The notes under the pieces were generated by a model. The model saw only the letters and a program-made list of their open reading frames with translations. It had not been told where the DNA came from and searched no databases. The position numbers and the translations under genes are program-made. A DNA stretch of 58,263 nt from Ignavibacteria bacterium (GTDB taxonomy: Bacteria; Bacteroidota; Ignavibacteria; UBA10030): NCBI GenBank assembly GCA_016873805.1, contig VGVZ01000022.1, forward strand, positions 1-58,263, in the 5' to 3' direction. The first letter of the stretch is position 1; each line of letters starts with the position of its first letter. Below are positions 12,235 to 41,122 of this stretch, one piece after another.

Positions 12235-14175
12235 ATGAGCACAATCACACTCACATTTCCGGATCGCTCAACAAGAGAATTCGAAAGCGGGACAGCGGGC
12301 CTTGCGATCGCACAGAGCATCAGCAGTCGCTTGGCAAAAGACGCGATTGCCGTGCTCGTGAACGACGAAGTTTGGGATCTTGGCCGCCCCATCAGTTCGG
12401 ATGCTTCCGTTCGAATTCTGAAGTGGGAGGATGAGGGGGGAAAATACGCATACTGGCACAGTTCGGCCCATCTGATGGCGGAGGCAATCGAGGCCCTCTT
12501 TCCGGGAACGAAGTTTGGGATCGGCCCGCCGGTAGAGAACGGATTTTATTACGACATCGATACGCAAGATCATGCTCTGACCGCGGAAGATCTGCAGAAG
12601 ATCGAAGAGAAGATGTATCAGTTGGCCGAGCGTGATGTTCCGTTCATCCGCGAGGAAACAGACTGGAAGAGAGCCGTTGAGTATTTCCAGAAGAAAGGGG
12701 ATCCATACAAGCTTGAGCTTCTGAACGAGTTGCGCGATCAGCCGATCTCGATGTATCACTCGGGGAACTTCACCGATCTTTGCTACGGTCCCCATATCCC
12801 ATCGACAGGCCGCATCAGAGCAATCAAACTGCTGAGCATCGCGGGCGCCTACTGGCGCGGGAATGAAAAGAACAAGATGCTCCAGCGCGTCTATGGTGTG
12901 ACCTTCCCGACGAAGAAGGAACTTGACGAGCATCTGTTCCGACTCGAGGAGGCGAAACGGCGCGACCATCGTAAAGTGGGACAGGAGCTCGAGCTCTTTC
13001 TCCTGACACCGAAGGTGGGCGGAGGTCTGCCCCTGTGGTTGCCAAAAGGCACCGTTATCCGGGAAACACTCGAGAATTTCCTCCGAGTCGAGCAGAAGAA
13101 ACGCGGCTATCTGCCGGTGGTGACCCCGCATATTGGGAATATCGAACTCTACAAGACAAGCGGTCACTACCCGTACTACAAGGAGAGCCAGTTTGCACCG
13201 ATCGGTGTGGACGAAGAGCAGTACTTGCTCAAACCGATGAATTGTCCGCACCATTTTCAGATCTACGCGTCCAAGCCGCGCAGCTACCGCGATCTGCCGG
13301 TCCGTCTGGCTGAATTCGGCACGGTCTATCGATACGAGCAATCGGGTGAGCTCAACGGCCTGATCCGCGTCCGTTCGTTTACAGTCGATGACTCGCACAT
13401 GTTTGTCCGCCATGATCAGTTGAAGGACGAACTGCTCTCTGTGATCGATCTGATCAAACACGTGTTCGTGACCCTCGGCTTCACGGATTTCAAAACCCGC
13501 CTCTCGTTCCGCGATCCGAAGAACCGGGACAAGTTTGGTGGGAGCGACGACCTTTGGGAACGCTCGGAACGTGAAATCCGCGAGGTTGCAGATGAATCGA
13601 AGCTCGATTACGTCGTCGCGGTGGGTGAGGCGGCGTTCTATGGGCCGAAGATCGATTTCATGGTGCGGGATGTTCTGGGGAGGACGTGGCAGCTCGGAAC
13701 AGTTCAGGTCGATTACGTGATGCCGGAACGTTTCAATCTCGAGTATGTCGGGAGTGACGGCCAGAAGCACCGGCCCGTGGTCATTCACCGCGCACCGTTC
13801 GGCTCGCTGGAGCGATTCATCGGAATCATGATCGAGCACTTCGGTGGAGATTTTCCCCTCTGGCTGGCGCCGATTCAGGCCGTCGTCATCCCAATTACGG
13901 ACAAGCACCTGGACTACGCCAAAGAGGTTTTTGCCGAGTTCAAGAGCGCCGGAATCCGTTGTGAACTTGACGACCGAAATGAGAAGGTTGGATACAAAAT
14001 CCGGGAATGGGAAACGAAGAAGATTCCTTATATGCTGGTTGTCGGCGACAAAGAACAGGCGAGCGGAACGATCTCCGTGCGCCGGCGAATGAAAGGGGAC
14101 ATCGGCGCGGTCGACGCCCGTTCGTTCCTGCGTCAGGTACTTGATGTGATCGAGAACAAGCAACTCACACTATAG
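12235..14175 (+). CDS. thrS: Threonyl-tRNA synthetase
   Basis: Charges tRNA-Thr. The 646-aa protein has the full bacterial architecture: TGS domain (1-60), editing domain with HSSAHLMAEAI near residue 80 and its partner Cys/His region (FTDLCYGPHI), class II catalytic core with the zinc-site MNCPHH, motif 2 (FGTVYRYEQSGEL) and motif 3 (HRAPFGSLERF), then the anticodon-binding domain from about 540. No Shine-Dalgarno site precedes the ATG, and a terminator hairpin ends 10 nt upstream, so leader control is possible. It is the first gene of the thrS-infC-rpmI-rplT block. Confidence 0.98.
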   Translation: MSTITLTFPDRSTREFESGTAGLAIAQSISSRLAKDAIAVLVNDEVWDLGRPISSDASVRILKWEDEGGKYAYWHSSAHLMAEAIEALFPGTKFGIGPPVENGFYYDIDTQDHALTAEDLQKIEEKMYQLAERDVPFIREETDWKRAVEYFQKKGDPYKLELLNELRDQPISMYHSGNFTDLCYGPHIPSTGRIRAIKLLSIAGAYWRGNEKNKMLQRVYGVTFPTKKELDEHLFRLEEAKRRDHRKVGQELELFLLTPKVGGGLPLWLPKGTVIRETLENFLRVEQKKRGYLPVVTPHIGNIELYKTSGHYPYYKESQFAPIGVDEEQYLLKPMNCPHHFQIYASKPRSYRDLPVRLAEFGTVYRYEQSGELNGLIRVRSFTVDDSHMFVRHDQLKDELLSVIDLIKHVFVTLGFTDFKTRLSFRDPKNRDKFGGSDDLWERSEREIREVADESKLDYVVAVGEAAFYGPKIDFMVRDVLGRTWQLGTVQVDYVMPERFNLEYVGSDGQKHRPVVIHRAPFGSLERFIGIMIEHFGGDFPLWLAPIQAVVIPITDKHLDYAKEVFAEFKSAGIRCELDDRNEKVGYKIREWETKKIPYMLVVGDKEQASGTISVRRRMKGDIGAVDARSFLRQVLDVIENKQLTL

Positions 14176-27820: not shown

Positions 27821-29659
27821 ATGTCCACCAAGATCTGCATACTCGACCAGGATATCGCGAACAAGATCGCCGCCGGCGAAGTCATCCAGCGTCCGGCATC
27901 GGCCGTCAAGGAACTGCTGGAAAATGCAGTAGATGCCGGAGCACGCAGCGTCACCGTTGTGGCGAAGGAGGCAGGGAGGTCTCTCATCCAGGTCGTCGAT
28001 GATGGTGAGGGGATGCTTCGCGACGACGCGCTGCTCTGTTTTCAGAGACATTCGACCAGCAAGATCGTCGCCGCTGAGGATTTGGAAAATATCCGCACAC
28101 TCGGATTCCGAGGCGAAGCGCTCGCTTCGATTGCCGCAGTTGCCCAGGTGGAGATCAAGACGCGGACGAAGTCTGATGAGACGGCGGTGTCTCTCCGGAT
28201 CGAAGGGAGCAAACTCATCGAGGAGTCCCGGGTCGCCGGCCCAATCGGAACCTCTATGGCCGCGCGCAATCTGTTCTTCAATACCCCGGCGCGTCGGCAG
28301 TTCCTCAAGACCAACGCCACCGAGCTTCGGAACATAACCGAGACGGTCACACGCGTGGCGCTTGCCTATCCCGAAATCGCTTTTCGCTATTACCATGACG
28401 ACACGGAGATCTACAATCTCTCATTTGGCAGCGAGGAACAGCGCCTGCGGGCGATTCTTGGAGACCCCCAATTCGATCAGTTGATCCCGGTGGCGGAGTC
28501 GACGCCGTATCTGCGGATTTCCGGATTCGTCGGTCGCCCAACCTTTTTCCGGAAGAGCAGGGCGGAACAGTATCTGTACTTGAATAGGCGGTTCATTGTC
28601 AGCAAGGCACTCAATCACGCCGTCTATCACGCCTATGAACATCTTCTGGAGAAAGGGTCTTTTCCGTTTTTCCTCCTCAACCTGACCATTGATCCCCGAC
28701 ACGTCGATGTCAACGTCCATCCGTCGAAGATGGAGGTGAAGTTTGAGAATGAATCGAATGTCTATCGTGCCGTGCTCTCAGCGGTCCGCCACGCGCTGGG
28801 CGCGCACGATCTTCCGCAGAGCGTCGACCTCGAGAAGGAGACCCGAATGCCGGTTTCCGTCAGCAGGTTGAACACTCCCGGAGAGGACCCGCGCGGCGCA
28901 TCGGCCTTCCCTGGATCTGCAAGATCGTTCGGTCGTGGGGAGCACGCACGCGCAACTCGTCTCGATGCCCTGTTTCAAGAAGGGGACCCCGAGGGTGTTG
29001 CCATCAACTCTTTCGGGTTGCGAAAAGAGGCCGCAGATCGCCTCTACGCGCACGCCGGCAGAATCGACGAGCTGGATGATGGACACCGTGAAACGCGTCC
29101 GATCTGGCAACTCCATAACAAGTATATCCTGTCGCAGGTCAGGACGGGCATCATCATCATCGATCAACATGTCGCGCATGAGCGCATCTTGTATGAGAAA
29201 GCGGTCGCGGGATTCGAAAACAATCTCCCATCCACCCAACAGCTTCTGTTTCCACAGACTGTCGAGCTGACGGCATCGGACTATGCCCTGGTTGAAGAGT
29301 TGCAGCCGCATCTCCAGGGACTCGGGTTCGGCTTGAAGCTGTTCGGGAAGAATACGATTGTCATCGAAGGAATCCCCGTTGACGTGCGTGTCGGAAACGA
29401 AAGACGAATTCTTCAGGATGTTCTCGATGAATACCGCCACATCGAACAGGAAGTGAAGCTCGACGTGAGGGATCGTTTAGCGAAATCATTTGCGTGCAAG
29501 GCGGCGATCAAGGCAGGCGACAGGCTGAAGCCGGAGGAGATGGTCCATCTGGTCGATCAGCTCTTCGCGACGTCGATGCCCTATGTCTGTCCGCACGGGC
29601 GACCGGTGGTGATCAGACTTTCCATAGAAGAATTGGATAAACGCTTTGGACGAACGTAG
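27821..29659 (+). CDS. mutL: DNA mismatch repair protein MutL
   Basis: Links mismatch recognition by MutS to strand incision. The 612-aa protein has the GHKL ATPase domain: KIAAGEVIQRPASAVKELLENA, DDGEGM, RHSTSKI and GFRGEALASIAAV. The C-terminal domain keeps endonuclease-type motifs: DQHVAHERILYE from residue 448 (DQHAxxExxxxE form), ACKAAIKAG and CPHGRP. It is therefore predicted to nick DNA itself, as in bacteria without MutH. It lies directly upstream of the mutase gene. Confidence 0.97.
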   Translation: MSTKICILDQDIANKIAAGEVIQRPASAVKELLENAVDAGARSVTVVAKEAGRSLIQVVDDGEGMLRDDALLCFQRHSTSKIVAAEDLENIRTLGFRGEALASIAAVAQVEIKTRTKSDETAVSLRIEGSKLIEESRVAGPIGTSMAARNLFFNTPARRQFLKTNATELRNITETVTRVALAYPEIAFRYYHDDTEIYNLSFGSEEQRLRAILGDPQFDQLIPVAESTPYLRISGFVGRPTFFRKSRAEQYLYLNRRFIVSKALNHAVYHAYEHLLEKGSFPFFLLNLTIDPRHVDVNVHPSKMEVKFENESNVYRAVLSAVRHALGAHDLPQSVDLEKETRMPVSVSRLNTPGEDPRGASAFPGSARSFGRGEHARATRLDALFQEGDPEGVAINSFGLRKEAADRLYAHAGRIDELDDGHRETRPIWQLHNKYILSQVRTGIIIIDQHVAHERILYEKAVAGFENNLPSTQQLLFPQTVELTASDYALVEELQPHLQGLGFGLKLFGKNTIVIEGIPVDVRVGNERRILQDVLDEYRHIEQEVKLDVRDRLAKSFACKAAIKAGDRLKPEEMVHLVDQLFATSMPYVCPHGRPVVIRLSIEELDKRFGRT

Positions 29660-29683
29660 CATGCAACAGGTGAGGGAGCGATC

Positions 29684-31348
29684 ATGATCTACGACGAGAA
29701 AAGAATGAACACCGAGAAGAAGAAGTGGGAACACAATGTTCGCTCGGCGGGCCGGATGCGTGAAGCGGTCTTTACGACCGTGAGCGGCGCGCCGGTAGAG
29801 ATGCTGTACACACCCGATGATATTGCGCATCTCGATTTCGTTCGTGATATCGGGTACCCGGGAGAATTCCCGTATGCACGCGGCATCCACCCGACGATGT
29901 ACCGTGGACGTTTGTGGACAATGAGGCAGTTTGCAGGATTCGGGACGCCGGAGGATACAAACAAGAGGTATCACTATCTCCTTGATCACGGACAAACAGG
30001 ACTCTCCGTCGCATTCGATCTTCCGACGCTGATGGGCCGCGACGCGGACGATCCGCTTTCGGTCGGAGAAGTCGGGATCTGTGGCGTGGCTGTCAGTTCC
30101 CTTGCGGATATGGAGATTCTCTTTCGAGAGATCAATCTTGGAGAGATATCGACCTCGATGACAATCAACGCTCCTGCACTCATGGTCATGTGCTTTTATC
30201 TCGCCGTGGCCGAGAAGCAGGGTGTCGACTTCACGCGGCTGCGAGGCACAATCCAGGCCGACATCCTCAAAGAATACATTGCGCAAAAGGAGTGGATCTA
30301 TCCCCCCGTACCTTCGATGAAGCTTATCATCGACATGTTTGAATACATGAACAGGGAAGTCCCGCAGTGGAATCCGATTTCCGTGAGCGGCTATCACATC
30401 CGGGAGGCCGGCTCGACCGCGGCGCAGGAACTCGCGTTCACTCTCGCCGATGGATTCGCATACGTGGAGGCCGGCATTGAAAGGGGATTGGACGTTGATG
30501 AGTTTGTCCCACGCATATCGTTCTTCTTCAATGCGCATATGGATTTCTTTGAGGAGATCGCGAAGTACCGGGCAGCCCGACGAATCTGGGCACGGAAACT
30601 CAGAGAGAAGTACGGCGCCAAAAACCCGCGGTCCTGGATGCTTCGGTTTCACACGCAGACGGCAGGTTGCTCGCTGACGGCTCAGCAGCCCGAAAACAAC
30701 ATCGTCCGAACGGCCTTCGAGGCCTTGTCGGGCGTTCTCGGCGGCACGCAATCCCTTCACACGAACTCGATGGATGAAACGCTGGCGTTGCCGTCGGAAA
30801 AAGCCGTGCGCATTGCCCTGCGTACCCAGCAAATCATTGCGCATGAAACAGGGGTGACCAATACGATCGATCCGCTTGCGGGCAGTTACTACCTTGAAAC
30901 CCTCACCAATCGGTTGGAGTCGGAGGCAGAGACCTATTTCGAACGGATTGAGGCGCTTGGGGGAATGATTCCGGCCATCGAAGCAGGTTTCCCGCAGAGG
31001 GAGATTGCGGACGCCGCGTACCGGTATCAACGTGAACTCGACCGAAAAGAAAAGATCATCGTCGGCGTGAATGATTTTGTTCAGGAAGATGAGAAGATCG
31101 AGATCCCGATTCTCGAAATATCCCCGGAGGTCGAAAAGAAGCAGAAACAGCGGCTGGCCGAAGTCCGGCATAGCCGAAATCGGGAAGATGTAAACGCGAA
31201 GATCAATGCGTTGAAAATCGCTGCCGCTGACGGCACGAACGTGATCCCCTCCCTGCTTGCATGCACCCGCGCCTACGTCACGCTGGGGGAGATGTGCCAC
31301 GCGCTGGCCGAAGTCTATGGAGTTTACGAAGAACCGGCGGTGTTCTAG
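29684..31348 (+). CDS. icmA: B12-dependent acyl-CoA mutase large subunit, isobutyryl-CoA mutase type
   Basis: Radical carbon-skeleton rearrangement of an acyl-CoA. The 554-aa protein has only the substrate-binding barrel; the B12-binding subunit is encoded separately at 35572. It resembles methylmalonyl-CoA mutase alpha, but two substrate-selecting positions differ. Where methylmalonyl-CoA mutase has RQY (Tyr89) and VRN (Arg207), this protein has WTMRQF with Phe83 and KEYIAQK with Gln201. Phe/Gln is the signature of isobutyryl-CoA mutase. The conserved His is in [12 protein letters not shown] split large-plus-small layout is also the known IcmA/IcmB form. Substrate is inferred, not shown. Confidence 0.85.
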
Positions 31349-34957: not shown

Positions 34958-35554
34958 ATGCCGAAAGCAAACCGAAGACCACTCATACTCGCATCGCGCT
35001 CACCGCGTCGCCGATTGCTGCTCAAGCAAATCGGATTGAATTTTCTCGTGCGACCCAGCACCGTCGATGAACGATTTCACGATCACGAATCCCCGCGGAG
35101 CGGTGCACTGCGCATCGCGGAGGAGAAGGCAATGGACGTTGCAGGACGATTTCGGCGAGGCATCGTGGTCGGAGCTGATACGATTGTCGTTGTCGGAAGG
35201 GAAGTCCTCGGTAAGCCGGAGACGAAACGGGAAGCACGGGCGATGTTGCGGAAGTTGAGCGGTCGGACGCATATCGTGTACACAGCGATCGTGCTCGTCG
35301 ACGTGGAGACGAAGAAGAAGACGTCTGAGGTCGCACGGACGAAGGTTCAATTCCGGAAGCTGACGACGGAGGAGATTGCTCTCTACGCGGCATCGGGCTC
35401 ACCAATGGACAAGGCAGGGGCGTACGGCATCCAGGATGATTACGGGGCGGTATTCGTTGAGAAGGTCGACGGCTGTTTCTACAATGTGGTTGGTTTTCCC
35501 CTCTCGCGGTTTCATCGCGCGTACGAAAAGCTACTGCGGGAGCTTCACCGATAA
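34958..35554 (+). CDS. maf: Maf-family nucleoside triphosphate pyrophosphatase
   Basis: Hydrolyses non-canonical or UTP/dTTP nucleotides to monophosphates. The 198-aa protein starts near [19 protein letters not shown], and has [22 protein letters not shown] and [11 protein letters not shown]. The SRSPRR and DKAGAYGIQ forms are those of the dTTP/UTP-type YhdE branch rather than the YceF branch. The ATG is 5 nt after a terminator T-run and lacks a clear Shine-Dalgarno site. The B12-binding subunit gene follows 17 nt later. Confidence 0.93.
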
Positions 35555-35571: not shown

Positions 35572-35988
35572 ATGGGAGATGAACAGAAGATTCGCGTGCT
35601 GATTGCCAAGGCAGGTCTTGATGGTCACGACCGGGGTGCGAAGGTCGTTGCTGCCGCGCTGAGAGACGCCGGGATGGAAGTAATTTATTCCGGATTGCGG
35701 AAGACTCCGGAGATGATTGTGGAGGCGGCTCTCCAGGAGGATGTGGATGTCATCGGCATCAGCCTCCTGAGCGGGGCACACAACACCATCTTTCCCAAAG
35801 TCCTCGCGCTCATGAAGGAGAAGGGACTCGATGATGTTCTGCTGTTCGGTGGCGGCATCATTCCCGAAAAGGATATCGACCAGCTCCGGCGATCGGGAGT
35901 CGGCGAGATCTTCACACCGGGAGCCTCGACCCTCGAGATCATCGAGTACGTAAAGAAATGGATTCAGGAACACCCCCGGAAGGGCTAG
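35572..35988 (+). CDS. icmB: B12-binding subunit of an acyl-CoA mutase
   Basis: The 138-aa protein is a stand-alone adenosylcobalamin-binding domain. Key residues: DGHDRG (Asp17-Gly22, with His19 as the lower cobalt ligand), [12 protein letters not shown] and [12 protein letters not shown]. It is the natural partner of the large subunit at 29684, which lacks this domain. The two genes are separated by 4.2 kb with five unrelated genes in between. It is placed after maf, so the two subunits are not in one operon. Confidence 0.92.
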
Positions 35989-36074: not shown

Positions 36075-36275
36075 TCACGTTTTGGAAACGTTAACTGCCT
36101 GAAGGCCCTTGGGGCCTTGCTGCACTTCAAACTGCACCGCGTCCCCCTCGTTAAGCGTCTTGTACCCGTCTCCCACGATGGACTTATAATGCACGAACAC
36201 GTCTTCGCCGGTGCTTCGCTTGATAAAGCCGTAGCCCTTCGCATTATTGAACCATTTGACTGTACCCTGCTCCAT
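36075..36275 (-). CDS. cspA: Cold shock protein, CspA family
   Basis: Single-strand nucleic-acid-binding beta-barrel (66 aa) that acts as an RNA chaperone. It has RNP1 (KGYGFIKR) and RNP2 (VFVHYKSI), and begins [14 protein letters not shown]. The ATG at 36275 gives the standard length; the in-frame ATG at 36290 is less likely. It is transcribed leftward with its own terminator. The 400 bp upstream of it hold no other gene and may contain a long cold-responsive leader. Confidence 0.95.
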
Positions 36276-36675
36276 ATGGACACTTCCCATATTGAGTTTA
36301 ACATGTACACCGGTACGTTGTCTCTGACAGTCCAAGAAGAAATCAACCGCGAGGCCGATGTTCTTCTCGTATCGTGCGAGATACAGAAATCGGAAGCGGA
36401 TACGTCCGATGGGAGAACTGCATCATCACTCGGTAGGAGTGCCGCATCAATCGACGCTGTTGAAACAAGAAACGGTGCGGTTAGTTGCGAGTCCAAGATA
36501 CCAACCGCCCCAGAAAGAATCAAGTCTGGCTGGGGTTAACCGGGAGCCGTTCAAACGCTTGGAAATACGAAGAATCCACGGATTTTGTGCAGGAGCGCAG
36601 ATTTCACCGGATGCGATGGTGTTATCCCGGCCTCTGCTTCAGGAGATGTGAATCGAATCCAACGGATCGCATTTG
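36276..36675. other. 400-bp intergenic region between cspA and the polymerase-like gene
   Basis: Should contain the cspA promoter and 5' leader (minus strand) and the 3' end region of the polymerase-like gene. No convincing coding frame, repeat or terminator was recognised. Confidence 0.4.
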
Positions 36676-39039
36676 TCATTCTTTGTCGTCAAGCCAGATC
36701 CGAAAATCTCCCTCCACGGCCTTTCCGCGCTCCGTGTCCGATCGTTCGCGGGCCGCAGATTCCCGGCGTGTGACGATGGCGATGTCACGGGGATCAAACT
36801 CGAAGAGTGAATCGTGCGTAAATAGTTTCTGAAAACTCGCCTCCGAAAACAGCATTTCGAATCGGGCGGCATATTCCCGCAGTCTCATCAGATAGAAGTC
36901 TCTGTTTTCGTCTGGAAAATTCGGGTCCCACTCTTCGGATGGTCGTACGTTCTCGGATATTCGAATGTTCGTTCCTGATCCAGTGACATAGAACGCGACC
37001 GTTTCTCCCACCCCTGCATAGGTTCCCGCGCGCAACAGTGCTTCGTAGGCCGCCGAAGGCTTGCGATCTCCTTTCTCCACCGCCATCTTGTACTCATCGA
37101 GCGACAGGTGAAGCGTCTCTCGTCGTTCAAAATCCCGCACCGTCCACTGGTGTTGGAGAATCGACTGCGCCGAGGCCTGGTAGAGGTTGTGCAGTCCGGC
37201 GATGTTCTCGTTCAGGATATTCGCAATCGCCTGCTCGACAAACCGACGAAGGTACAGCTCGATGCCGTGTGGGAGAATGGACGGCCCATGAATCTGAATC
37301 CGTTGCGACAAGTCGAGCGTGACGTAGTTCTTGCGCTTGAGACTGAGGAGCCGTGGATACGTTCCGCCCACGATGGGCTCAACTCCGGAGGGAAGCGACG
37401 CCAACATGCGTTCAAGAAGCTGCAGTTGCTCGTCCCGACCGATGACATTGTCCGGGGCACTGAAAAAGTGGGCAGAACCGTCGCGGAGAACGAGCTCAGT
37501 GTTGAACAGGGAGGCAATCTGCTGGATCTCGATCCGGAGCTGGGTCGTTGCCTCGACGATCCGTTTGCTCATCGGGGCGTCATTGAGGATCCCTCTCGAC
37601 GATGTGAGATGAGCGTAGAGCCCAGCCAAAAGCGTATTCATTCCTCCTACCTCACTGTCGAAGTGTCGCTCGGCGGAATCAGTTCTCGTTTCTGTCAGAT
37701 TCTGCCGCAGAGCGAGAACCGCATCGAGAAGAGTCCGGACTACATGCAGCTCATCGCGCTCCGGAGATAGGTCCAACGATTGGATGATCCGCGCATGCAG
37801 ATCTGGGAATTCGATTTGCAGGACGTTTGAAAAAAGACCGGTATAGAACAACTCGCTCTCATCCGGGAGAGTTATCGATGTGTCCGATGTTTTGGGGAGC
37901 GCGTGTCGTTGGTCGAGGTAATAACGGAGAATGACGGATTCAATTAGCTGGCTCGGACTTGTTCGCACCAATGAGCCGAGTGGAAACGGCGCGATGCGCG
38001 CAAGAAGGATCGCCCCGGGAAGCAGAACGGTGGAAAGCCGTTCGGTGACTTCCCGTTCGAGGATCGCCTGATTGCGGACCATCTCAGGATCGTCATCCCA
38101 CGATGATCGGAGATGGGAGGGTTGATCGGAGGAGCTTCGGTATTTCTCTTCGCCGAAATACGAGACGAGCAAGTCCCGCGGCGAAGACTTTTCCGCGTGG
38201 CGTCGGAGCGTATCGTACATCGCCACGAGGGATTCAAGGTCGATCACGTGACGTCCGGCGATGTCGTAGGGGGGGTATTCCAATTCGGTCGATGACCGCG
38301 GAAACCGGGGAGCGGATGCTCGCGGTTCCGATCCGTCTCGTCCCAGTGGACACTCAAGTTGATGCAAACTGCAGCGCCGCAGGAGATACGGCAGCGATTC
38401 GGACGTGAGCCGCTGGCCGATGATCAGATCGGGATCTCTTTCACGAACAATTCCGAGGAACGCACTGATGAGTTCCTTCTCGCCCAAGCGTCTTCCATCG
38501 AGAGTCTTTGACCATCCCTTCCCGTCGGAAAGGTCGATAACCACGATCCGATTGCTGCTCTTGGCCGCGATGGGAGATTTACCGCGGGGCGCGACGGCCG
38601 CGAGGGAGACATGCAAGCAGGCGAGGTCTCCAACCTCGAGGCCACGAAAAAGAGTGTTTCCCGATTGAACAAGATACTGCCACGCCGGGTCGGGGTGGGT
38701 GTAGATTGTGCCCAGCTCCGCGTAGCTCGAGGGACTGCTTCCCGTTCGCTTCCGGGTCGACTCAAGAATGAGTCTGATGGCGTCCCAGTATTCGCTCCAG
38801 CGAGGGAATGCTGTGAGGTATCGGAAGAAATTGTGGCCGGCGAGTTCCTTGAGCCAGTACTTCTGCTTGAACTCTGAAAGAAGCGAATCGTCGGAGAGAT
38901 AGAGAAACGGGAAGAATTCGACGTCGCTCGTCGAAATCTTCCCGCCTTCTCTGAGATACAATCTGATGTGCTGGTCGCCCTGCTGCTGAACTGCTACGAC
39001 CTTTCGTGCGGAGCCATGGCCATACAGCAGCGCGTCCAT
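36676..39039 (-). CDS. Inactivated family B DNA polymerase homologue
   Basis: The 787-aa protein aligns along its length with bacterial family B polymerases (Pol II-like and 'DNA polymerase domain' proteins): LIIGQRLTSESLPYLLRRC then LECPLGRDGSEP, LRYYLDQRHALP, and RKNYVTLDLSQRI. The catalytic positions are lost. Exo I (usually D-I-E) is S-L-A at 145-147; Exo II (N-x3-F-D) has Arg210 and Ser215; motif A (D-x2-SLYPS) is E-F-P-D-L-H-A-R at 410-417; motif B lacks K-x3-NSxYG; motif C (DTD) is R-D-G-S at 519-522. It is predicted to bind DNA or partners without synthesis. It starts 6 nt after the slipin gene, so it belongs to the nfeD-slipin operon. Confidence 0.85.
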   Translation of the reverse strand: MDALLYGHGSARKVVAVQQQGDQHIRLYLREGGKISTSDVEFFPFLYLSDDSLLSEFKQKYWLKELAGHNFFRYLTAFPRWSEYWDAIRLILESTRKRTGSSPSSYAELGTIYTHPDPAWQYLVQSGNTLFRGLEVGDLACLHVSLAAVAPRGKSPIAAKSSNRIVVIDLSDGKGWSKTLDGRRLGEKELISAFLGIVRERDPDLIIGQRLTSESLPYLLRRCSLHQLECPLGRDGSEPRASAPRFPRSSTELEYPPYDIAGRHVIDLESLVAMYDTLRRHAEKSSPRDLLVSYFGEEKYRSSSDQPSHLRSSWDDDPEMVRNQAILEREVTERLSTVLLPGAILLARIAPFPLGSLVRTSPSQLIESVILRYYLDQRHALPKTSDTSITLPDESELFYTGLFSNVLQIEFPDLHARIIQSLDLSPERDELHVVRTLLDAVLALRQNLTETRTDSAERHFDSEVGGMNTLLAGLYAHLTSSRGILNDAPMSKRIVEATTQLRIEIQQIASLFNTELVLRDGSAHFFSAPDNVIGRDEQLQLLERMLASLPSGVEPIVGGTYPRLLSLKRKNYVTLDLSQRIQIHGPSILPHGIELYLRRFVEQAIANILNENIAGLHNLYQASAQSILQHQWTVRDFERRETLHLSLDEYKMAVEKGDRKPSAAYEALLRAGTYAGVGETVAFYVTGSGTNIRISENVRPSEEWDPNFPDENRDFYLMRLREYAARFEMLFSEASFQKLFTHDSLFEFDPRDIAIVTRRESAARERSDTERGKAVEGDFRIWLDDKE

Positions 39040-39045
39040 TGTTCC

Positions 39046-39813
39046 TCACTTCCTCTTTGATAATCCTTCGAGAAATGGAGTGATGAGATCGATCGGCACG
39101 GGGAATATGGTCGTCGAATTGTTCTCGGTCGCGATTTCTCGAAGCGTCTGCAAATACCGGAGAGTGAGCGCACTGGGCTGATCGGCCAGGATCTTTGCCG
39201 CATCGGCAAGTCGGGTTGCGGCCTGATACTCGCCTTCCGCAGCGATGACCTTGGAACGGCGTTCGCGCTCGGCTTCCGCCTGCTTGGCCATCGCGCGCTG
39301 CATTTCCTGCGGAAGATCGACGTGCTTGACTTCGACGTTGGAAACCTTGATTCCCCACGGTTCAGTCTGATGGTCGATGATTTCCTGAAGTTGCAGATTG
39401 ATCTTTTCGCGTTCGGAAAGCAGATCGTCAAGTTCGGATTGGCCCAGAACGCTGCGAAGGGTCGTCTGTGAGAGCTGCGAGGTGGCAAAGAGAAAGTTCT
39501 CCACCTCCACAATTGCTTTTTCCGGAAAGACAACGCGGAAATAGACCACCGCATTGACTTTAAGCGATACGTTGTCCTTCGTGATGATATCCTGTGGCGG
39601 GACATCCATCACAACGGTCCGGAGACTCACTTTGACCATCTTATCGATCAACGGGATCAGAATGATGAGCCCGGGGCCCTTCACGCCGACGAGTCTGCCA
39701 AGCCGAAACACGACGCCCCGTTCATATTCCCGAAGAACGCGGATTGCATTTGCCAGAACGATGACGGCAAAGACGATGATAATGACAAAAACAGTCGGAA
39801 AGGCAGGTGCCAT
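39046..39813 (-). CDS. Slipin / SPFH-domain membrane protein
   Basis: Stomatin-like protein (255 aa) that forms membrane microdomains and usually pairs with an NfeD protease. One N-terminal helix (about 6-26) precedes the SPFH domain: [40 protein letters not shown] and [21 protein letters not shown] coiled coil with [16 protein letters not shown] follows. It lies 4 nt downstream of nfeD and 6 nt upstream of the polymerase-like gene, all on the minus strand. Confidence 0.94.
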
Positions 39814-39817
39814 TGTC

Positions 39818-41122
39818 TCACCCTTTCGAGGTTACATGTTTGTTTGATTTGTCTACTTTGAGAACAAAGCCTTCAATTGCGACGACCGTGATCGGTGTCC
39901 CTTTCGGGAGCTTGCCCGCGAGTGACGTGGCATCCCAAATCTCCCCATGGACCCTCACTTTGCCGGCTGGATTCAACTGAGTGGTCGTGATGCCGCTCTC
40001 GCCGACGATTCCCTCGGACCCCGTCGTTGGTTTGAGGCGAAGCGCTTTGATGCCGAACCCAAGGATGAACAGGAAGAAGATGATCGTCAGAACGGCCGTC
40101 GTGATGATCACGCTGCTGGAAATTTCGATGAATTCAAGTCCCGATTCCGAACGGATGAGCATCAGCGATCCCAGAACGAAGGAGATGATGCCTCCGACAG
40201 TCAGCAAGCCATAGCTCACCACTTTGATTTCCGCGATAAATAAGATGATGGAAAAGATAATGAGTGCCAGTCCGGCGTAGTTGATGGGAAGCGTGTGGAG
40301 CGAATAGAACGCCAGGATCAGGCTGATGACGCCGACGACGCCGGGCAGGATGGAACCCGGGTTGTAGAGCTCGAACAACAGCCCGTAGACGCCGAGCATC
40401 AAGAGAATGTAGGCGATATTCGGATCGCTGAGAATGTCGAGAATTTTTTCGGACCAACCCATTTCGAGCGCGGTGATTTCCGCTCCCTTCGTCTCGAGAG
40501 TGACAGTCCCTGCGCTCGTTTCCACGTTCTTCCCGTCGATCTGGGCGAGCAGATCGTCGAGATCCTTGGCGATCAAATCAATCACATTGTCCTTGAGCGC
40601 CTCCGTCTCCGTGATCGACAGGCTTTTTCGTACGGCCTCTTCGGCCCAACCAAGGTTGCGCTTTCGTTTCTCCGCGATGGTCCGAATGAACGCGGCCGCG
40701 TCATTCGTGGCCTTTTCGTTCATGATCGAATCTTGCCCACCCTGGAGTGACACCGGGTGTGCAGCTCCGATGTTTGTCCCGGGTGCCATGGCGGCGATGT
40801 GCGCGGCAAGTGTGACGAATACTCCCGCGGATGCCGCCTGAGAACCGCCGGGCGAAACATAGACGATCACGGGAATCCTGGCGGAGAGAATATCCGCCAC
40901 AATCACACGAGTGGACTTGAGGAGGCCCCCCGGCGTGTTCAGATGCACGATGATACATTCGGCTTCGGCCTTCGTTGCCTTCTCGATGCTCCGGTGCAGG
41001 AATTCAGCAGCGGCTGGATTGATCGCACCATCGATCTTGGCTGTGTATACCGTCTGACTGAAAACATCAGAGATGACAGCAATAACCAGAATGGCAATTA
41101 CGAAGGACGTGTGACGTGGCAT
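39818..41122 (-). CDS. NfeD-family membrane serine protease
   Basis: Full-length NfeD (434 aa): signal peptide, ClpP-like protease domain (about 25-210), four or five membrane helices (about 235-355) and a C-terminal OB-fold (about 370-430). The nucleophile is probably the Ser in [10 protein letters not shown], with a catalytic Lys in IMNEKATND, as in Ser-Lys NfeD proteases. The OB segment shows [20 protein letters not shown]. The partner slipin is the next gene. It is the promoter-proximal gene of a three-gene operon. Confidence 0.94.

Follow-up and report, generated by a model that had tools for sequence, protein, structure and literature searches.

A family B DNA polymerase homologue with eroded active sites in an Ignavibacteria genome and its possible retention in a non-catalytic role

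Can a gene that has lost the active sites of a DNA polymerase still be of use to the bacterium that carries it? The question is raised by polB, located on a 58,263-nucleotide stretch of contig VGVZ01000022.1 (Ignavibacteria bacterium, assembly GCA_016873805.1), referred to as the window. An initial annotation had described its product as a homologue of family B DNA polymerases (PolB) that has lost its catalytic residues and is retained in a non-catalytic role. On balance, we favour a similar answer: the protein (P0001; L numbers denote the homologous sequences or loci compared, G numbers the genomes) would be a retained, non-catalytic PolB orthologue derived from the bacterial G3 group, binding DNA and a partner as a scaffold or placeholder. 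The retention claim draws support from orthologues, low ratios of nonsynonymous to synonymous substitutions (dN/dS) in inactivated sister pairs, synteny and domain-selective conservation.

An open polymerase frame and its lost catalytic residues

The proposed 787-aa frame is real. It reads on the minus strand, which the annotation had left unstated, from an ATG at 39039-39037 to a stop at 36678-36676, with 787 uninterrupted codons instead of the broken frame expected of a pseudogene; frame 1 of the plus strand carries numerous stops across 36676-39039, which disposes of a strand error. The two scaffold stretches quoted in the annotation are both found in the translation. Homology beyond chance is indicated by full-length relatives in genomes of the same order (best E = 5.4e-178), by a match to a solved archaeal (thermococcal) PolB (E = 6.8e-15, the best for a solved structure) and by the predicted PolB fold. 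A spurious open reading frame (ORF) was ruled out by orthologues, synteny and a codon composition like that of 7 other window genes (GC of 0.62/0.42/0.65 at the three codon positions), and an assembly error or contamination by a flanking block arranged as in relatives, with flank proteins 68-75% identical (6 relatives compared). The sole Pfam match of P0001 was PF03104 (PolB exonuclease), under its cut-off; PF00136 (polymerase domain) did not match it, and the NCBIfam model for DNA polymerase II (4.4e-07) fell far under its cut-off. In a profile search of solved structures, thermococcal PolB stood on top among the 60 of 135 matches listed, and no chain named Pol epsilon was found among those 60. 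By profile, then, archaeal PolBs and not E. coli Pol II are the nearest solved relatives.

A homologue was found in 49 of the 61 genomes of the order and in 29 of the 32 genomes of the family (the own genome counted in both), near-full-length ones in the order being 28-38% identical to P0001. A 20-member profile matched 101 of 294 class genomes, a count that takes in other PolB groups. Record titles of the best 80 of 567 confirmed places spread the homologues over several phyla.

Six of the seven catalytic acids of P0001 are substituted (S145, A147, S215, E328, E410 and S522) when it is aligned to the active member L014, whose numbering gives D145, E147, D215 and D327 for the exonuclease and D409, D523 and D525 for the polymerase (Table 1; motif labels are those of general PolB usage). 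None of the four exonuclease acids remains. The retained acid, D520, is the first motif C Asp, the essential second one being replaced by S522. Every substitution named in the annotation appears as stated, as does the absence of the SLYPS and NSxYG motifs; further changes not listed there affect Exo III (Tyr to Gln and Asp to Glu) and the motif B lysine (to Asn). Since motifs A and C align to L014 without gaps, an alignment slip masking intact acids is improbable and was rejected as an explanation. The residues by which an active polymerase is recognised, namely the motif A Asp, the motif B Lys and the second motif C Asp, are here E410, N468 and S522. As far as sequence can tell, the strong case for inactivation lies in two metal ligands essential to the polymerase, both of them lost (motif A Asp to Glu and second motif C Asp to Ser); the broader statement that the catalytic residues are lost applies to six of seven acids, given that D520 stays and that two of the six changes are merely Asp to Glu. 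Judged by these residues, P0001 is very probably catalytically dead.

P0001 does not stand alone in this respect. We aligned 127 deduplicated members selected on length, after 20 near-duplicates had been dropped and fragmentary or broken members (L128, L129 and L130) excluded from the counts; 16 class genomes with a match above 700 bits were not added as such, some of them being possibly in the set as named contigs. All seven acids were intact in 90 members, 20 showed loss in the exonuclease only (2-4 exonuclease acids lost per member), 17 had lost both activities' acids (referred to as dead members) and none had lost those of the polymerase only. Either D409 or D525, the metal ligands taken as essential, was missing in all 17 dead members, and both were missing in nine, P0001 included. 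The excluded L129 (G016:C333) consists of two open pieces and one TGA, in a genome that is 69% complete, and an assembly error is possible there.

Could P0001 still be an enzyme, that is, a specialised polymerase working at a low rate through E410 and D520? It has kept one motif C Asp together with a Glu at motif A, and a Glu is found at motif A in several other dead members too. Archaeal PolB2/Dpo2 had been regarded as inactivated but polymerises robustly despite an altered motif C (PMC8764526), and PolB2 resembles P0001 as a PolB altered in both exonuclease and motif C (Rogozin et al. 2008, PMC2527604; PMC8764526; PMC11791011). However, PolB2 is a separate, active group. Of the motif C Asps, which do not weigh equally, PolB2 lost the less critical first and kept the second (HxxxD) (PMC8764526), whereas P0001 lost the second (LRDGS). 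It is also without the motif A Asp, SLYPS and the motif B lysine, and some other dead members have lost more acids than P0001, and different ones. We therefore regard residual synthesis of the PolB2 kind as quite unlikely, and the precedent of inactivated PolB proteins in archaea, invoked in the annotation, as weaker than claimed, PolB2 being active.

By motif hallmark and descent, the P0001 family appears to belong to group G3 of the bacterial PolBs. Of the 110 members with intact polymerase acids, 108 carry the motif C glutamate that is named as the clearest hallmark of G3, B10 and Pol epsilon (Kazlauskas et al. 2020, PMC7544198); P0001 has Leu at this position and is nested in trees among hallmark-bearing members, at the same syntenic locus. 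G3 is described as experimentally uncharacterised, and a survey of 3070 complete genomes states that its members retain the active sites of both exonuclease and polymerase (Timinskas et al. 2026, PMC12926913). The P0001 family shares its full-length layout of N-terminal domain, exonuclease and polymerase, but P0001 and 16 relatives lack these conserved sites; the genomes compared here are mostly in many contigs. No report of an inactivated G3 PolB was found among the titles and abstract openings listed for inactive G3 or Ignavibacteria PolB in the open-access literature.

AlphaFold2, run on 52 sequences, predicted an intact full-length PolB fold for P0001, with a predicted local distance difference test score (pLDDT) of 85.7 and a predicted template modelling score (pTM) of 0.82. 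The top structural matches of the model were archaeal PolBs and engineered forms of them (4flt: Z = 28.2, root-mean-square deviation (rmsd) 3.2 over 677 residues); Pol epsilon 8b67 matched with Z = 26.7 and rmsd 5.6 over 695 residues, and families missing from the search listing are uninformative. That the fold is imposed by active relatives was ruled out, because an alignment of dead members only (16 sequences: the window protein and 15 of the 16 others, L119 being omitted as close to L032) gave the same fold (pLDDT 82.7, pTM 0.78; 4flt: Z = 27.5, rmsd 3.1 over 670 residues).

Selection, decay and the parts of the protein that persist

Ordinary decay is the obvious alternative: the gene would have been useless since its erosion, and its frame would be open merely because drift has not yet broken it. 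The dN/dS values (Nei-Gojobori) of dead pairs do not point that way (0.154 for L021/L028, 0.129 for L032/L119 and 0.100 for L118/L032, the last at a near-saturated dS of 1.9; two more dead pairs were saturated). Finite dS was also obtained for five pairs with an intact polymerase, whose dN/dS spans 0.034-0.173: four exonuclease-only pairs (0.173, 0.093, 0.138 and 0.088) and the fully intact L023/L034 (0.034 at dS 2.2). In a neutral simulation at 0.1 substitutions per site, a mean of 5.75 stops accumulated and none of 200 runs was stop-free; an internal stop was present in 1 of the 49 order genomes with a match. Evolutionary rate was compared with that of the flanking proteins as the ratio of PolB to flank distances from L012. 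It was 1.33-1.55 for 13 exonuclease-only family members and 1.70-3.50 for 12 dead ones, P0001 among them with 2.49; the two ranges do not overlap. Acceleration in the family thus tracks polymerase loss and is specific to the polB gene, a pattern that counts for decay as well as for the favoured reading; fast evolution of the whole genome was not seen in the flanking genes.

Conservation is moreover restricted to particular parts of the protein. Columns with an identity of 90% or more were taken from 61 intact members, the distant set L084-L113 being excluded. P0001 keeps 33 of the 37 such columns that fall in the N-terminal domain, thumb and tail, and in the exonuclease-palm-fingers core it keeps 57 of 116 (Fisher P = 7.8e-6). 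Ten groups of dead members, which are not ten independent losses, all showed the same direction, nine of them with P < 0.05 (first member tested). No such bias was seen in intact controls (36/37 versus 111/117 in L012; 114/139 versus 392/468 in four distant intact members), and intact L151 was biased in the opposite direction (P = 0.036).

The conserved parts include two C-terminal patterns, both picked after the tails had been seen and with figures for intact members that take in distant phyla. All 17 dead members carry the tail pattern I-x-[LFI], as do 18 of 20 exonuclease-only members and 23 of 90 intact ones (L030 has one unresolved base in the tail); the pattern [LMIV]Fx[FI] ahead of it is present in 15/17, 15/20 and 48/90, respectively. 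In P0001 the latter corresponds to HDSLFEF, a candidate clamp-binding motif. Alignments of E. coli Pol II (1q8i, 3k57 and 3k5o) with the dead-only model end at model residues 745-746, equivalent to Pol II 780-782, which we take to be the place of the Pol II clamp motif; two other Pol II rows end slightly earlier. KRKNY, presumably the KxY DNA-contact motif of PolB, is intact in P0001.

Several observations weigh against retention or against its domain-selective form. The dN/dS of the window gene itself is unmeasurable, since its dS against L009 and L006 (about 3, with dN 0.65) is saturated and no close orthologue exists among the genomes compared, the nearest relative being about 38% identical over its full length. 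The length filter discarded broken frames, so that the openness of all dead frames is partly a matter of construction. A clean deletion of polB, with the maf and B12-binding genes next to the SPFH and NfeD genes, is seen in G048, G038 and G055, which belong to a different family; within its own family, polB was not found in 3 of the 32 genomes, one of which is 55% complete, and a TGA interrupts it in G016. These deletions, absences and the TGA indicate that polB is dispensable in some lineages. Exonuclease-only groups show a milder erosion of the core (P < 0.05 for L006, L005 and L149), the most diverged dead pair (L131/L132) retains just 0.62 of the N-terminal columns, the LF pattern is absent in 2 of the 17 dead members, and KxY is altered in L123, L125, L127, L131 and L132 among others.

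Even so, L131/L132 retain the I-x-[LFI] tail as well as 0.92 of the columns in the thumb and, together with the dN/dS values of 0.10-0.15 in three dead pairs, the rarity of internal stops and the restriction of conservation to particular domains and motifs, this makes ordinary decay a poor fit, and we hold it to be unlikely. P0001 is probably kept by selection.

Two observations on other C-terminal parts were made in passing. Eight homologues (L057, L059, L061, L068, L074, L078, L079 and L080) end in an acidic stretch followed by [IV]PF (e.g. DVEDEIPF); several PolBs with this ending are from Rhodothermales, Rhodothermia or Salinibacteraceae, and other family members end in EEF or DEF. The acidic [IV]PF ends closely resemble the C-terminal tip of SSB, and no report of a polymerase with an SSB-like tip was found among the papers listed. 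Genome G020 has, besides a full copy, a second C-terminal polB piece (G020:C34:13737-14279, L199), which may reflect a strain mixture or a duplicate; a free-standing thumb was ruled out because the piece sits at a contig end.

Number and order of the losses, and what the protein may do

Trees were built from 83, 34, 30 and 42 of the 127 rows. The 83-row PolB tree, made by a quick method with the catalytic stretches removed, contains several long branches including P0001 and needs 7 exonuclease and 5 polymerase changes; the tree of five flanking proteins (42 rows, 4 of them less than half filled) needs 6 and 8. The placement of P0001 inside its family is unsettled in the 83-row tree. In two smaller PolB trees it groups with L006/L009 (support 95 by the quick method and 94/94 by a careful one), which are exonuclease-dead and polymerase-intact. 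One shared clade of the dead family members was not rejected by PolB (approximately unbiased test, P = 0.093 with all rows and 0.056 without four long rows), a result that weakens the case for repeated loss. The flank tree rejected a single clade of P0001 and the dead family members (P = 0.0009; P = 0.0008 in a variant with L017 and without L131/L132). A separate polymerase loss in the P0001 lineage is therefore supported by the flanks, the PolB tree being neutral.

As to order, exonuclease loss is common to 25 of 26 family members in the 83-row tree. Loss of the exonuclease first is seen in the family of P0001 and in the L116 group, the four sisters of which have exonuclease-only loss; for L029/L031/L120, and likewise for L027, the PolB tree places the two losses on a single branch. 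A tentative reconstruction, which we put just below an even chance, is that in one Bacteroidota-side order a stand-alone G3-like polymerase was converted 5-8 times, exonuclease first wherever the order is visible, to a non-catalytic placeholder bound to DNA and clamp and under selection for its N-terminal domain, thumb and C-terminal peptide motifs.

For P0001 itself, the reading that we favour on balance is as follows: (i) a G3-like PolB was inherited vertically at its locus; (ii) the proofreading exonuclease was lost first, as its loss across the family shows, and the polymerase active site afterwards, as an event of its own on the flank tree; (iii) a full-length protein with the PolB fold would still be made, as the open frame, selection in dead sisters and structure prediction suggest; (iv) the thumb and KxY region would bind duplex or primer-template DNA; (v) HDSLFEF and the IWLDD motif of the tail may bind a partner, the sliding clamp being a first guess for HDSLFEF; and (vi) the protein would serve, without synthesising DNA, as a placeholder or scaffold that, for example, holds a stalled primer end or recruits another polymerase. 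The DNA-binding scaffold role proposed in the annotation is plausible; binding of DNA plus a clamp or other partner as the specific job is a reasonable guess that falls a little short of our assent.

Inactive PolB modules have been described elsewhere. The C-terminal half of Pol epsilon is a retained inactive exonuclease-polymerase module for which an assembly role has been proposed (Tahirov et al. 2009, PMC2669801); it is fused into a eukaryotic replicase, whereas P0001 is encoded by a bacterial gene that stands alone and whose family has undergone several separate losses. Chordopoxvirus F12 is, like P0001, a stand-alone inactivated family B polymerase with another role (Yutin et al. 2014, PMC4304020), but it is viral, and its lineage and role are unrelated.

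If repeated loss of catalysis with the rest kept is real, an important job of G3 would be something other than DNA synthesis, and the conserved parts point to the domains responsible. Intact, exonuclease-dead and doubly dead orthologues at one locus provide a natural series for non-polymerising functions. Caution is also due in annotation: P0001 fails the Pfam polymerase model, and, if motif loss means what it seems, the name 'DNA polymerase' given by orthology alone would mislabel 17 of the 127 members.

The polB locus, its neighbours and other polymerases

Table 1. Features of polB and its surroundings in the window
Feature	Coordinates	Strand	Basis
Degenerate, apparently G3-derived family B DNA polymerase homologue (P0001), 787 aa	36676..39039	-	Open frame, full-length relatives, predicted fold
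N-terminal domain, residues 1-135	38635..39039	-	13/13 columns kept (alignment positions 1-140; non-catalytic, at least 95% identical in active members)
Exo I: DxE to S145-L-A147	38599..38607	-	Alignment
Exo II: D to S215	38395..38397	-	Alignment
Exo III: YxxxD to Q324...E328	38056..38070	-	Alignment
Motif A: DxxSLYPS to E410-FPDLHAR	37783..37818	-	Alignment
Motif B: K to N468, NSFYG to AGLYA	37600..37650	-	Alignment
Motif C: E-x-D-T-D to L-R-D520-G-S522	37468..37494	-	Alignment
KRKNY, KxY motif, intact	37324..37338	-	Alignment
Thumb, residues ~598-722 (approximate boundary)	36874..37248	-	Retains 0.92 of its 12 conserved columns
HDSLFEF (742-748), candidate clamp-binding motif	36796..36816	-	[LMIV]Fx[FI] pattern, end of Pol II structural alignment
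C-terminal tail DFRIWLDDKE	36679..36708	-	I-x-[LFI] pattern
SPFH/Band 7 (stomatin-like) gene, 6 bases upstream of polB	39046..39813	-	PF01145 (4.4e-39), synteny
nfeD, upstream of SPFH	39818..41122	-	PF24961, PF25145, PF01957; synteny
Cold-shock domain gene, downstream (start assumed)	36075..36278	-	PF00313; synteny
B12-binding domain gene	35572..35988	+	PF02310; synteny
maf	34958..35554	+	PF02545; synteny

In relatives, too, polB is surrounded by maf, B12-binding, cold-shock and NfeD genes. The presence of polB at this conserved locus, and its deletion in three relatives, where none lies between the B12-binding gene and SPFH (L192, L193 and L194), indicate a gene inherited in place that can be lost altogether.

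In the window, GAGG directly precedes the polB ATG at the junction with SPFH, and nfeD, SPFH and polB likely form an operon in which SPFH and polB are co-transcribed. A role in the membrane or in envelope stress, with the dead polymerase as a partner of the SPFH-NfeD module, could account for the 6-base spacing and for the distribution of SPFH, which immediately precedes polB in 15 of the 16 dead members besides P0001 and in 17 of the 20 with exonuclease-only loss, but in 15 of the 84 intact members with enough flank (6 further intact ones had too short a flank to judge), an association confounded with descent. Three polB-less family genomes have distant SPFH matches only, and Chordopoxvirus F12 offers a dead PolB with a non-DNA role (PMC4304020). 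Against this, the adjacency in 15 intact members (e.g. L012, L016 and L024) means that the arrangement is older than the inactivation, dead L027 has no adjacent SPFH, and SPFH-NfeD persists without polB in three genomes. We find such a partnership very unlikely. Co-loss with SPFH was rejected as proof of it, each gene being found without the other. A single publication was listed for a link between SPFH-NfeD and a polymerase, and it concerns another subject.

Among the polymerase families searched (family A was outside the search), the genome encodes, besides polB, three further polymerases: a PolB2-like one, one of the Y family and a replicative one of the C family. The PolB2-like gene on contig C4 (G000:C4:159342-160541; L001, L154) is alone in this genome in matching PF00136, and its motifs A and C read DFVSMYPS and HAIID. 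No RecA/RadA-type Pfam match was found in the six ORFs neighbouring it, and the locus is unlike the published iRadA-PPB2-PolB2 operons (PMC11791011). In the genomes of one family, a few kilobases separate a PolB2-like gene from the present or former locus of polB (L194 2342-4615, G033:C4:83532 and G058:C204:12991). A link between polB loss and the PolB2-like gene was dropped, as a weaker second PolB match is common in relatives whatever the state of the first.

Elsewhere in the window, two long minus-strand frames (12268-14163, 631 aa, and 29486-31300, 604 aa) lie opposite plus-strand ORFs of similar size; they are probably an effect of codon composition.

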